Below, in pieces: positions 58,548 to 63,582 of a DNA stretch of 64,000 nt. The translations under genes were made by a program, and so were the position numbers. Source of the stretch: an uncultured Verrucomicrobiota bacterium (GTDB taxonomy: Bacteria; Verrucomicrobiota; Verrucomicrobiia; Limisphaerales; UBA1319). The DNA lies in the NCBI GenBank assembly GCA_903845125.1, contig CAIMWS010000506.1, positions 1 to 64,000 on the forward strand, in the 5' to 3' direction. Positions within the stretch are counted from its first letter, which is position 1, and each line of letters starts with the position of its first letter. The notes below the pieces were generated by a model. That model worked only from the letters and a program-made list of their open reading frames with translations. It did not search any database and was not told the origin of the DNA.

Positions 58548-58901
58548 CTAATTGGATTTCTTATTCTTTTTGGAGCTTTTGCCTGCGGTGCTCTTCTTTC
58601 TAAGGTCTTCCTTCATGGCCGCTTTTTCCTCGGCATCCAGTTTGCCATCCTTGTTCTTGTCGTATTTTTTAAGTTGGTCTTCGCGTTGCTTCTTTTGGTC
58701 GGCTTTCCAAGCGGCTTTCTCCTGGTCATCCAATTTGCCATCCTTGTTCTTGTCGTATTTTTTTAGGACAGCGGCGGGAACCGGTTTCTCTTGGGCGCCT
58801 TCCTTCTTGGTATCCGGAGTGCTGGCATCCGCTGCTGAGCAGTTCAAAGCCCAGGAAAGACTAAGACAAGCGGCGATTAAAACGATTCGTTTCATATTCA
58901 T
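58548..58901 (-). CDS. small secreted EF-hand protein
   Basis: 117 aa with signal MKRIVLIAACLSLSWALNCSA (58895 is an equally good start). Two calcium-binding loops, DKNKDGKLDDQE (50-61) and DKNKDGKLDAEE (81-92), each sit in a KKYDKNKDGKLD context. The rest is a charged Lys/Glu/Ala helix and a basic tail KKSTAGKSSKKNKKSN. The two loops are almost identical at DNA level. It probably binds Ca2+ in the envelope; target unknown. Single-gene unit with its own terminator. Confidence 0.88.
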   Translation of the reverse strand: MNMKRIVLIAACLSLSWALNCSAADASTPDTKKEGAQEKPVPAAVLKKYDKNKDGKLDDQEKAAWKADQKKQREDQLKKYDKNKDGKLDAEEKAAMKEDLRKKSTAGKSSKKNKKSN

Positions 58902-59147: not shown

Positions 59148-59178
59148 GGTGGATAACATGTGAATAACCTGTGAACAA
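59148..59178 (-). promoter_or_regulatory. three phased DnaA-box-like 9-mers
   Basis: Read on the minus strand the 9-mers are TTATCCACC (59148-59156), TTATTCACA (59159-59167) and TTGTTCACA (59170-59178). The middle one fits the TTWTNCACA consensus fully; the others differ at one base. They repeat every 11 bp in one orientation, about one helical turn, and an AT-rich tract follows. They lie 43 nt upstream of the candidate mraZ -35 element. DnaA control of the division cluster is the inference. Confidence 0.6.
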
Positions 59179-59220
59179 GTCCGGCGAGTAAAATTTTTTC
59201 ATATTTAGCACATTTGAGAG

Positions 59221-59277
59221 TTGACGGTTATGTGGGGTATTGTGGTATGAATTGGGTTGTTTTGGGGGAAAGTGGGT
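59221..59277 (+). promoter_or_regulatory. mraZ promoter with five-box MraZ operator
   Basis: Boxes TGGGG (59233), TGGTA (59243), TGGGT (59253), TGGGG (59263) and TGGGT (59273) follow each other with exactly 5-nt spacers. MraZ is known to bind TGGGN repeats at 10-bp spacing upstream of its own gene. A candidate promoter overlaps: TTGACG at 59221-59226, 19 nt, then extended -10 TGG-TATGAA ending at 59251, with an AT-rich tract upstream. Autoregulation is thus very likely; the exact promoter is less sure. Confidence 0.88.
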
Positions 59278-59303
59278 ACGCACGCTCCCAAAGCACTTAA
59301 AAA

Positions 59304-59771
59304 ATGTCAGCCACCAACGCCAGTGATCTGTACTGCTCGCAGTATCGTCATGCTCGTGACGATAAGGGACGCCTGCAGGTGCCGTCGCGTTGGCGCAATG
59401 GGGAGGCTGAAACGTGTTTGATGGTGATCGAGTGGAAGGAATGGATCGACGCCAATACGTCCCATCCATGCTTGTTGGTCGTGCCACCCGCGGTTTGGGA
59501 GCGTTTGGTTGAATCCCTGAAAGCCCTGCCATTCGGAGATCCGATATCCCAGAAAAAGCGGCGTCTGGTTGGCAAACGATCCCAGCGGGTGGCGATCGAT
59601 AAAGCCGGGCGGATCAATATTCCGGACGAAATGCTGCAGAAGGTGGGCATTCAAAAAGAAGCCATCTTTGTCGGGTTGCTGGATCGTTTTCAGATTTGGG
59701 ATCCCGATCGTTACAAGGAAATCGATAGCGAGGACGATAAATTCGAGGCAGAAGCATTCCAATCATTATAA
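59304..59771 (+). CDS. mraZ: transcriptional regulator MraZ
   Basis: 155 aa, the first gene of the dcw cluster. Two AbrB-like half-domains: YRHARDDKGRLQVPSRWR near the N-terminus and RVAIDKAGRINIPDEMLQKVGI in the second half, each with the D-x2-GR-x-x-(V/I)P core. MraZ forms rings and represses the division and wall operon by binding the TGGGN repeats found just upstream. Slightly longer than the usual 140-150 aa. The ATG at 59304 lacks a strong Shine-Dalgarno sequence. Confidence 0.95.
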   Translation: MSATNASDLYCSQYRHARDDKGRLQVPSRWRNGEAETCLMVIEWKEWIDANTSHPCLLVVPPAVWERLVESLKALPFGDPISQKKRRLVGKRSQRVAIDKAGRINIPDEMLQKVGIQKEAIFVGLLDRFQIWDPDRYKEIDSEDDKFEAEAFQSL

Positions 59772-59781
59772 GGCGGCAGTT

Positions 59782-60276
59782 ATGAAATTGTTACAGTGTT
59801 TACAGGTGGGACAGGCATTGATGAGCGTAGGCAACGGTGGCAGATACCAAATGCGCGATCAGAACTGCCTGCCAAAATTCAACCGGCAGCTCGTTCTGGA
59901 TTTGAACAGCCGGACCCTGACGCCAGCACCGGCCGCATTGGATTTGAAGCCGGAGGCTCCCCCGGTTCCTTGTTCCGGGGCGCGTCTGGATGGGCCGGTG
60001 GCGCCAATCCTCAAAACACCGTCTCCCAAGTTCCGGTCCTCGGCCCGGGCCACCGGTCCCCTGCGGCAGGCTGAGTTGTCGCTGGAAAATGTGAAAGTGG
60101 TCTGCAATGACCTGCGGGACAGCGATGTGGAACTGGTGATCCAGCGTAATCGGCCGGTGGAGACAGGATCGGCCACCCATCCGCGGATGACCACCCCCCC
60201 CGTGCCACGGCCGTGGCTGGGTTGGCTCGGCAACATGCTGGCCCGCACTTCCCGTTCCATTTCCTCGGTCCAATAA
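59782..60276 (+). CDS. unknown protein between mraZ and rsmH
   Basis: 164 aa with AAGGCGG 5-11 nt before the ATG at 59782, 10 nt after mraZ and 7 nt before rsmH, so firmly inside the operon. No signal or membrane segment. A proline-rich middle (TLTPAPAALDLKPEAPPVP) separates a short basic N-terminus (KLLQCLQVGQALMSVGNGGRY) from a compact segment AELSLENVKVVCNDLRDSDVELVIQR. The end, PWLGWLGNMLARTSRS, could be an amphipathic helix. I recognise no family. Position suggests a division or wall role. Confidence 0.78.
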   Translation: MKLLQCLQVGQALMSVGNGGRYQMRDQNCLPKFNRQLVLDLNSRTLTPAPAALDLKPEAPPVPCSGARLDGPVAPILKTPSPKFRSSARATGPLRQAELSLENVKVVCNDLRDSDVELVIQRNRPVETGSATHPRMTTPPVPRPWLGWLGNMLARTSRSISSVQ

Positions 60277-60283
60277 ATGACCG

Positions 60284-61222
60284 GTGCAAACTTTTTCCCA
60301 CATTCCGGTCATGTTATCCGAGGTGCTCGCCGGGCTTCTGCCGAAGCCCGGGGGGCGTTACCTGGATGGCACGGTCGGGGGTGGGGGACATGCCCGGGCC
60401 ATCCTGGAAGCCAGTTCGCCATCGGGCTGGTTATATGGATGCGACCGGGATGCGGAAGCCATTGCGGCGGCGAACTGCTGCTTGCAGCCATTCCAGGGAC
60501 GTTTTGAGATCCGCCACCAGAGCTTCACCGGATTGGAGGGGTGGATACCGCGGAACAGCCTGGATGGGGTTTTATTGGACTTGGGAGTCAGCTCGGCCCA
60601 ATTGGATCACCCGGAGCGGGGATTCAGCTTCCAGGTGGATGCGCCGCTGGATATGCGGATGGATACCCGGCAATCCCTGACCGCCGCCGAGGTGGTTGCC
60701 CAATATGCCCCGGATGAGTTGGCACGGATTTTCTGGGAATACGGCGGCGAGCGGGAATCGCGGTCGATAGCGCGCGCCATTGATCGCGAGCGGCAAAAAT
60801 GCCCGATCCGGACCACCGGACAGCTGGCGGCGCTAGTCAGCCGCCGGAAACCCCGTTTCGGACGCGGCGCCCATCCGGCGACCAAAGTATTCCAAGCCTT
60901 GCGCATGGAAGTAAACGATGAATCAGCCAGCCTGAAAAAAGGCTTGGCCGCCGGCTGGGCAGCCTTGGCCGCCGGGGGGCGCATGGTGGTGATCACTTTT
61001 CATTCGGGTGAGGACCGGGAGGCCAAGCAATTCAGCCAGACCCATGCCCGTGATTACCGCGTGGTGGGGGAGGTGGATCGGCCGGAATTCCGCACCGATT
61101 GGCGGCCCGATCTGAAAATTCTGACAAGGAAAGCGCTCAAACCGTCCGAGGCGGAAATCCAATCCAATCCCCGGGCGCGCAGCGCACAAGTCCGTATTTG
61201 GGAGAAGACCTATGTTACCTAA
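60284..61222 (+). CDS. rsmH: 16S rRNA (cytosine(1402)-N(4))-methyltransferase
   Basis: 312 aa starting at GTG 60284, giving the usual opening QTFSHIPVMLSEVL. The SAM-binding motif is LDGTVGGGGHARAIL (from ~27). VLLDLGVSSAQLDHPERGFSF, PLDMRMDTRQSLTAAEVV and RMVVITFHSGEDREAKQF are RsmH hallmarks; the last normally reads FHSLEDR, here G for L. It methylates C1402 in the ribosomal P site. Standard second or third gene of the dcw cluster; overlaps ftsL by 11 nt. Confidence 0.96.
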   Translation: MQTFSHIPVMLSEVLAGLLPKPGGRYLDGTVGGGGHARAILEASSPSGWLYGCDRDAEAIAAANCCLQPFQGRFEIRHQSFTGLEGWIPRNSLDGVLLDLGVSSAQLDHPERGFSFQVDAPLDMRMDTRQSLTAAEVVAQYAPDELARIFWEYGGERESRSIARAIDRERQKCPIRTTGQLAALVSRRKPRFGRGAHPATKVFQALRMEVNDESASLKKGLAAGWAALAAGGRMVVITFHSGEDREAKQFSQTHARDYRVVGEVDRPEFRTDWRPDLKILTRKALKPSEAEIQSNPRARSAQVRIWEKTYVT

Positions 61223-61674: not shown

Positions 61675-63582
61675 ATGGATTATCCGCTCCAAAACCGCCG
61701 GCTGCTGTTCGTCACTTTCCTGACGATATTGGCTTTCTGCGGATTGGCTTACCGGTTGGTGGATTTGCAGGCGTTTCAGCATGAGGATCTGCGCAAGAAA
61801 GCCCAGGCCAACACGATCCGGACCTTTTTCTGGGAGCCCCGCCGGGGCGATGTGCGGGATATCAAAGGCAACCTGATGGCCACCAGCCGGCAGGTCAAAA
61901 CCGTGTGTGTAGATCCCACCCTCATCTGCAATACCAATGTGGGGAACCACCAGGCTGAGGTGGCTCGCGCCTTGGCTCCCCTCCTGGACCTTCAGGAGAG
62001 TGAATTGCTGAAACAGCTGCAAATTCAATACCTCACCAACCAGTCCGGGCAGTTGGTGCCGGACCGTTACGTCATTCTCAAGCGTAAGGTGAAAGTCGAA
62101 GATTGGGAAAAGGTGCGGGCCCGCATTAATGATTTGTCGTTTGGCACGGATGAAAAAACCGTCCCCAAACGCCTGCGGCCCTACTACCGGGCGCTGCGGC
62201 AACGTTCAGTATTCGCCGAGGATGCCCAGCTCCGGGAGTATCCCAATGGCCGCCAGGCTGCGCATGTAATTGGATACGTGGGGGTTGAGGAGCGCAAGGC
62301 CAACAAGGGTTGGGTCATTGAGACCTCCGGGAAAGATGGCTTGGAGCTGACTTTGAATGGCTCACTGACCGGAGTTCGAGGCTGGCGGGTAACGGAACAG
62401 AACGAACACAAGCAGGAGTTGGTGGTTTACCGGGAGCAGGATGTCAATCCCCGGCCCGGTTTGACGGTAGTATCCACCCTGGATCTTGGCCTGCAGAACA
62501 TCGTCGAGACCGCGCTGGAAGAAGGCATGCAAAAGTATTCGCCCCTCAGCGCGTCGGCCATTGCGGTGCGGCCGCGAACCGGGGAGATTGCGGCGCTGGC
62601 GGTGCTGCCCAATTATGATCCGAACGATCCCTCCAAATATGATCCGGAGTGGCGGCGCAACCGGGTCATCACGGATTTGAATGAGCCGGGAAGCACGTTC
62701 AAGGTGGTGGCCGTGACCGGAGCGCTGAACGAGCATGTGGTCAATCCTTCCACGGTTTTCGACTGTGAAAACGGAAAATTCTTTTACGCCGGCCGCTTGC
62801 TGCACGATACCCATCCCTACGGAGAATTGACCGTGGAACAGGTTATCACCAAGTCCTCCAACATCGGGGCGGCCAAGATCGCTTTGTTGCTGGGCCAGGA
62901 GCGTTTCCGCTCCTACATCACGAATTTCGGTTTTGGCTACCAGACCGGTTTGCCGCTGCCGGGCGAACGGCAGGGGACCGTGCACCCGCTGGCGGCCTGG
63001 AACAAGCTGTCCATCACGCGCGTGGCGATGGGCCAGGAAGTGGCGGTGACGCCGCTGCAAATGGCGATGATGATGAGCGCGATTGCCAATGGCGGGCGGT
63101 TGATGCGGCCGATGCTGGTCAACCGGTTGGAGGATGAAGAAGGGCGGGTGGTGGCCCAATACCAGCCGCAGGCGATCCGCACCGTGTGCACGCCCGCGAC
63201 GGCCCGGATGATGATTGAGGCTCTGAAAACGGTGGTGACCACCAATGGCACCGCTCGCAAAGCCCGGCTGGCCAATTACACCGCGGCGGGAAAAACCGGC
63301 ACCGCCCAGAAATCCGCCGGCAAGGAGGGCTATTCAGGCCAGCATTTCAGTTCGTTTATCGGGTTTTTCCCGGCGGACAACGCGGAATTGTGCGTCGCGA
63401 TTTTCCTGGATAATCCCCACCCGATCTATTTTGGCGGTGAAACCGCGGCGCCGGTTTTCAAGGCCATCGCGGAGCGCGCCGGCAATTATCTGAACATCAA
63501 GCCGGAGTTCATCGCGGTGGAGAGCCTGGAAAATTCCCCGCACGCCAGTGCCCGGGAAGCGGCGGTGGTGGCCACCGACTAA
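61675..63582 (+). CDS. ftsI: septal peptidoglycan transpeptidase FtsI (PBP3-type)
   Basis: 635 aa class B penicillin-binding protein. One N-terminal helix (LLFVTFLTILAFCGLAYRLVDLQ), a pedestal beginning EPRRGDVRDIKGNLMA, and the transpeptidase with Ser340 in STFK (GSTFKVV), SSN at 394-396 (KSSNIGAAK) and KTG at 540-542 (AGKTGTAQ). GYVGVEERKANKGWVIETSGKDGLE is the typical linker. It crosslinks septal wall with FtsW and is the beta-lactam target. It follows ftsL by 19 nt and precedes murE. Confidence 0.96.
   Translation: MDYPLQNRRLLFVTFLTILAFCGLAYRLVDLQAFQHEDLRKKAQANTIRTFFWEPRRGDVRDIKGNLMATSRQVKTVCVDPTLICNTNVGNHQAEVARALAPLLDLQESELLKQLQIQYLTNQSGQLVPDRYVILKRKVKVEDWEKVRARINDLSFGTDEKTVPKRLRPYYRALRQRSVFAEDAQLREYPNGRQAAHVIGYVGVEERKANKGWVIETSGKDGLELTLNGSLTGVRGWRVTEQNEHKQELVVYREQDVNPRPGLTVVSTLDLGLQNIVETALEEGMQKYSPLSASAIAVRPRTGEIAALAVLPNYDPNDPSKYDPEWRRNRVITDLNEPGSTFKVVAVTGALNEHVVNPSTVFDCENGKFFYAGRLLHDTHPYGELTVEQVITKSSNIGAAKIALLLGQERFRSYITNFGFGYQTGLPLPGERQGTVHPLAAWNKLSITRVAMGQEVAVTPLQMAMMMSAIANGGRLMRPMLVNRLEDEEGRVVAQYQPQAIRTVCTPATARMMIEALKTVVTTNGTARKARLANYTAAGKTGTAQKSAGKEGYSGQHFSSFIGFFPADNAELCVAIFLDNPHPIYFGGETAAPVFKAIAERAGNYLNIKPEFIAVESLENSPHASAREAAVVATD

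Follow-up and report, generated by a model that had tools for sequence, protein, structure and literature searches.

Analysis of a 64,000-nt stretch of DNA from an uncultured Verrucomicrobiota bacterium (the window; its genome, an 8.5-Mb assembly of 561 contigs, falls by related named records in Limisphaerales, Verrucomicrobia subdivision 3) confirmed two phased arrays in front of mraZ, at the head of the dcw cluster: three DnaA-box-like 9-mers and a putative five-unit MraZ operator. The 9-mer array is conserved among relatives, has a preferred spacing to the promoter, and is shared with other replication and segregation promoters. It is probably a cooperative DnaA site (59148-59178) with a transcription-factor role at the dcw promoter, most likely as an upstream activator, with MraZ repressing the same promoter by occlusion. 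A broader reading, for which we judge the chances about even, is that in Limisphaerales and some related families a single DnaA regulon comprises dnaA, dnaN/oriC, dnaB, smc and the mraZ operon, with DnaA directly activating dcw from upstream and MraZ repressing it, a two-input switch that would time division by replication state. The alternatives weighed below are, in falling order, DnaA as repressor, titration of DnaA, another factor, an origin-like element, and chance. How replication initiation is coupled to cytokinesis is a long-standing question. Conservation throughout an order, in contrast to a ChIP peak from one species, suggests that the DnaA boxes at the division-cluster head promoter are under selection. 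The locus also lends itself to direct tests, among them the sign of regulation by the boxes, and comes with a set of probably co-regulated promoters at dnaA, dnaB, smc and dnaN.

Two phased arrays upstream of mraZ

The gene behind both arrays is mraZ (PF02381), followed by rsmH/mraW and then ftsI (Table 1), so that an MraZ-family protein is encoded first in the dcw cluster, as at MraZ-regulated dcw promoters. An exact 11-bp period joins the three 9-mers (59148, 59159, 59170), all in the same direction; the triple is present as the first-pass annotation had described, is unique in the window, and appeared in none of 10 first-order Markov resamplings. Box 2 (TTATTCACA) fits the TTATnCACA consensus exactly, and boxes 1 (TTATCCACC) and 3 (TTGTTCACA) have one mismatch each, within the limit of about two mismatches for 9-mers near a DnaA-regulated promoter. 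Single DnaA boxes with one mismatch exceed expectation only slightly in the window (10 versus 5.4), so the argument rests on the phasing of the boxes and on its conservation.

An AT-rich tract follows the 9-mers and precedes the mraZ promoter, which is itself overlapped by the second array, an order of elements that the earlier annotation had read correctly from the sequence. The tract is possibly an UP element or a spacer. In the second array, TGG boxes start at 59233, 59243, 59253, 59263 and 59273, an exact 10-bp period, and this five-box arrangement is again unique in the window and absent from 10 first-order Markov resamplings. Five TGGGN-type boxes had been proposed here; the count and the period stand, while the motif needs amendment, as four units read TGGG and the second reads TGGT. 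MraZ-regulated promoters carry at least three GTG/TGGG repeats with a period of about 10 bp; the window has five such units, at least three phased TGG motifs occur in 59 of 104 relatives as against ~2% of mono-shuffled sequences, and the array is kept in both the order and the phylum samples.

Table 1 Features of the mraZ region (window coordinates)
Feature	Position	Strand	Description
EF-hand protein gene	58548..58901	-	PF13202; divergent from mraZ
DnaA box 1 (putative)	59148..59156	-	GGTGGATAA on +, TTATCCACC on -; weakest match of the three
DnaA box 2 (putative)	59159..59167	-	TGTGAATAA on +, TTATTCACA on -; conserved core
DnaA box 3 (putative)	59170..59178	-	TGTGAACAA on +, TTGTTCACA on -
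AT-rich tract	59185..59220		36 bp, 72% A+T; between boxes and promoter
-35 hexamer of the mraZ promoter	59221..59226	+	TTGACG, from sequence; TTGAC kept at the same place in relatives
MraZ operator (putative)	59233..59282	+	Five 10-bp units TGGGGTATTG TGGTATGAAT TGGGTTGTTT TGGGGGAAAG TGGGTACGCA; overlaps promoter and start site
Extended -10 (predicted from sequence and relatives)	59243..59252	+	TGgTATGAAT; its TG is part of MraZ box 2
mraZ	59304..59771	+	155 aa, first dcw cluster gene; PF02381, E 1.9e-18, alignment
Small ORF	59782..60276		~164 aa, between mraZ and rsmH; no family given
rsmH (mraW)	60284..61222	+	PF01795, E 5.8e-98
ftsI-type penicillin-binding protein	61675..63582	+	PF00905 and PF03717

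Conservation and spacing of the boxes at mraZ

To follow the array across the order, mraZ upstream regions were gathered from 104 loci of Limisphaerales, and boxes were counted over 103 of them. Within 350 bp of mraZ, TGTGAATAA occurs exactly in 59/103 loci, 73 copies being oriented with the gene and 6 opposed to it; TGTGGATAA has only 5 occurrences in these regions, and 64 kb of control DNA from more distant upstream positions contained no copy of TGTGAATAA. When 400 bp were searched on both strands against a resampled null, the exact box was present at 61/103 loci (0.5 expected) and a box with at most one mismatch at 79/103 (9.8 expected), and a tandem pair with 11-bp spacing was likewise found at 61/103 (0.5 expected). 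Counted by family, the exact box occurs in one or more members of 34 of 55, and 45 families have a box with at most one mismatch; among the loci of the named GTDB set, 54/80 carry the exact box. The nulls are first-order Markov resamplings, and the relatives are non-independent, which the family counts correct only in part. Since the MraZ proteins of these relatives are only ~30-50% identical to that of the window, untouched drift does not explain the conservation of the box, and retention in 45/55 families is what is expected of a DnaA-regulated promoter. The 9-mers are thus kept in relatives, one of the two points on which the first-pass annotation had staked its proposal.

Boxes for the mraZ logo were picked by similarity to TGTGAATAA, so that only the flanks and the second box are unbiased; this second box retains G-A-x-A-A at +11. 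Within the window's own family, one genome (G003, UBA1319) has the triple array as well, again in steps of 11 bp, a second (G001) has a single box, and a third (G004) has none; mraZ was not found in G002. In all, the box at mraZ is missing from 10/55 families, from one of the four own-family members in which mraZ was found (G004), and from seven other families of the class. The site is therefore dispensable in these lineages. In family f14 (L073, L079), a tandem pair lies upstream of mraZ in the opposite direction. Two mraZ-like genes are adjacent in tandem at two further loci (L037 in G016 and L081 in G049).

At the 57 loci with a settable -35 and a phased TGG array, a box with at most one mismatch was found in the 90 bp above the -35 in 47 cases (1.5 expected). 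In 33 of these 47 the box lies 36-40 bp from the -35, and smaller groups stand at 27-28 bp and at 46-49 bp; the main clusters, at 36-40 and 46-50 bp, are separated by roughly one helical turn. In f66 and f71, two families of the same class, the distances are 36-37 or 47-48 bp. A Rayleigh test with one value per family (n=23) gave p of about 1e-4 for a period of 10.5-11 bp; periods of 10 and 12 bp were only slightly worse, so the period is not sharply fixed. The window's own boxes keep the same period but lie 51, 62 and 73 bp from the -35, outside the main class of relatives (36-40 or 46-50 bp), and this unusual distance genuinely weakens any strict argument from phasing at this locus.

In E. 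coli, tandem boxes can titrate DnaA, and the sites described here might be datA-like sinks of this kind, without effect on mraZ. We regard this as improbable, because a sink needs no phasing whereas distance and direction relative to the -35 are fixed, and because one small site per gene is found at several cell-cycle promoters.

The association of box and mraZ extends beyond the order. Three further families of the class show it, f71, f72 and f66 (in most members of the last), and it was absent from f74, f65, f75, f67, f63, f70 and f73 in the class sample. In the other classes sampled the box was absent at mraZ while the TGGG array was kept, and that array is present almost everywhere in the sample. 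The original proposal of a link throughout the phylum was therefore too wide and is rejected: among the classes sampled, boxes at mraZ were found in Limisphaerales and some other families of its class. Several lineages without a box at mraZ still have one near dnaA, which indicates that the link at mraZ was lost or gained while the box itself remained unchanged.

The same box at dnaA, dnaN, dnaB and smc

Nineteen genomes searched for the tandem pair gave 32 matches, compared with 0 for the reversed pattern. Eight lie at mraZ, 13 upstream of dnaA and three upstream of dnaB, one of these last on contig C128 of the window's own genome; the rest include dnaN, mreB and a single match upstream of smc (G036). 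Testing gene by gene (at most one mismatch, 400 bp), the box was found at dnaA in 29/29 cases (2.5 expected), all with tandem boxes, upstream of dnaN in 28/30 (3.0 expected), at dnaB in 16/30 (1.4 expected) and at smc in 18/29 (2.6 expected), where 12/29 were exact (0.2 expected); the control gene ffh had it in 0/27 (1.2 expected). Many of the smc boxes lie at about -74 to -81 before the gene. Chance similarity might be entertained because single one-mismatch boxes are common in the window, yet it is rejected as close to negligible by the 45/55 families, the many-fold excess over the null, and the ffh control.

Boxes of the type TGTGAATAAC-NNGTGAAYAA precede every dnaA with enough upstream DNA, mostly about 200-330 bp from the frame, and TGTGAAYAA, the type of box 3 in the window, is the commonest second box at the dnaA promoters of the order. 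The tandem occurrence at dnaA and the recurrence upstream of dnaN are as expected of the lineage's own DnaA box at its dnaA promoter and oriC. Box 2 of the window together with the following C is one of nine copies of TGTGAATAAC in the 8.5-Mb genome, of which five fall inside predicted ORFs and the other four stand before dnaA, dnaB, smc and mraZ. Single boxes show no genome-wide excess (17 versus 16 for the reversed pattern in G075, 14 versus 9 in G000), which marks the sites as rare and specific, not scattered. That dnaA, the dnaN/oriC-like region, dnaB and smc share this element is strong support for DnaA as the predicted binder and, with it, for a putative link between replication and division.

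The window's genome encodes a full-length DnaA (TIGR00362) in which the recognition helix, GGRDHGTV, is retained. In nearly all class members read (e.g. L145, G000), Gly replaces E. coli Thr435 in GGRDHGT, and TTATTCACA boxes are preferred over TTATCCACA at dnaA loci (L105-L134) and others. The E. coli consensus is TTATnCACA (PMC5742627); the sites described here share box sequence and location at the dnaA promoter with E. coli dnaA autoregulation (PMC8203912, PMC5742627), and differ in favouring TTATTCACA over TTATCCACA and in the Gly counterpart of Thr435. Epsilonproteobacterial DnaA has a non-Thr residue at position 435 and a TTCAC box core (PMC5043019), which fits the TTATTCACA preference. 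A fifth-position T in the box and a residue other than Thr at 435 are thus shared with that group, whereas its residue is Ser or Ala rather than Gly and its box arrangement is unrelated to mraZ (PMC5043019).

With the evidence coming from DNA and protein sequences, such a regulon might be that of a factor not yet described, and another cell-cycle regulator, not DnaA, might read TGTGAATAA at dnaA, dnaN, dnaB, smc and mraZ. This would be surprising, as the motif has the form of a textbook DnaA box, stands in tandem at dnaA and in clusters before dnaN close to the skew minimum, and as the DnaA recognition helix is conserved.

The first-pass annotation had also raised a secondary origin-like role for the boxes and the adjoining AT-rich tract, and had suggested a comparison of the mraZ locus with the GC-skew minimum and dnaN. 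The comparison, made in the closed genome of a relative (G075), goes against the idea: the skew turns at 2.72-2.73 Mb beside dnaN, with the minimum just upstream of that gene, while mraZ lies at 4.25 Mb, about 1.5 Mb away. In the window, no skew switch was seen at 59 kb, the place of mraZ, and the sampled skew of another genome (G101) was too noisy to inform. Origins combine a box cluster and an unwinding element near dnaA or dnaN; the window has one promoter-sized array, and in its genome dnaA (contig C530) and dnaN (C166) are on contigs other than that of mraZ. The 36-bp AT-rich tract next to three boxes is what speaks for an origin-like element, and it also fits an UP element. On the skew of the closed relative this reading is rejected, and we consider it very improbable.

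The oriC of the order likely lies upstream of dnaN, away from dnaA, given the skew minimum of G075 and the conserved boxes there. Boxes number 64 in 18 kb upstream of dnaN against 1 in 33 kb inside it, and TTATTCACA is conserved near -60, with further conserved boxes at -170 to -215 (L410-L439, L470). In G075, two TTATYGACA sites stand directly before dnaN, although no dense box cluster was found in the 300 kb around the skew minimum (2.66-2.96 Mb, L335-L349), where one-mismatch sites number at most three per 500 bp.

Further features were seen at these promoters. Upstream of dnaA (e.g. L112, L121, L125), AGTTAATATGTTGTCCTCG is conserved directly after the tandem boxes and is likely the -10 and start of the dnaA promoter, and GGTGAATAAA is conserved near the dnaA start codon. 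The smc box locus was read in G000 (L471, contig C123:7050) and in relatives (L479-L507). A tandem DnaA-box pair lies between fmt and a small membrane-protein ORF without known family in two genomes (L148 and L150; G101 and G015), and a tandem DnaA-box-like pair lies upstream of mreB in a third (L153; G003 C73:5633).

Proposed modes of regulation and precedents

In the mechanism that we favour, DnaA would occupy two or three head-to-tail boxes with an 11-bp period upstream of the -35, on a helix face that would be fixed in most relatives, and would activate RNA polymerase by contact from upstream when active DnaA is plentiful, activation being the most likely sign. MraZ, the first product of the operon, would bind the five 10-bp units, which extend from the -35/-10 spacer across the start site, and occlude the promoter. 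The site would belong to a DnaA regulon together with dnaA (by autoregulation), dnaN/oriC, dnaB and smc, and DnaA and MraZ may thereby jointly control the division genes. Binding by DnaA, activation rather than repression, occlusion by MraZ and cell-cycle timing are what we infer from the arrangement of the sites.

DnaA might instead bind the array and repress mraZ, or repress at high and activate at low levels, in which case the division genes would be held back until initiation uses up active DnaA. The boxes at dnaA overlap the likely promoter and fit autorepression, which makes such a role plausible in this lineage. At mraZ, by contrast, the boxes are upstream of the -35 in helical spacing classes, the usual place of an activator, and MraZ already supplies repression; we therefore think a repressing DnaA rather unlikely, though the foremost competitor of upstream activation.

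Transcriptional regulation by DnaA and autoregulation by MraZ are each already known. In the review's account of B. subtilis, DnaA binds at the ftsL promoter (Goranov et al. 2005, via PMC8203912), and that case shares with the present one a DnaA site near a division-cluster promoter. As described there, the ChIP signal is at ftsL, inside the cluster, whereas here the boxes are at the mraZ head promoter, conserved across the order, usually at fixed -35 distances, and beside an MraZ array. The DnaA regulon of C. crescentus includes gcrA, ftsZ and podJ (PMC8203912) and likewise places division genes under DnaA within the cell cycle, although the set named in the review contains no dcw head promoter, dnaB or smc. 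DnaA boxes at E. coli ftsQA were later found irrelevant to ftsZ transcription (PMC8203912), an analogy that may caution against inferring regulation from boxes. In a literature search that covered few subscription journals, no earlier account turned up of a DnaA regulon spanning dnaA, dnaN, dnaB, smc and dcw, or of DnaA boxes at mraZ or in Verrucomicrobia.

MraZ represses its own operon in E. coli, M. genitalium and B. cenocepacia (PMC8475190, PMC7761207). The E. coli and Burkholderia cenocepacia systems share with the window GTG/TGGG repeats about 10 bp apart before mraZ (PMC8475190, PMC7761207). Their repeats lie downstream of the -10 (PMC7761207), whereas those in the window start right after the -35, and box 2 provides the TG of the extended -10.
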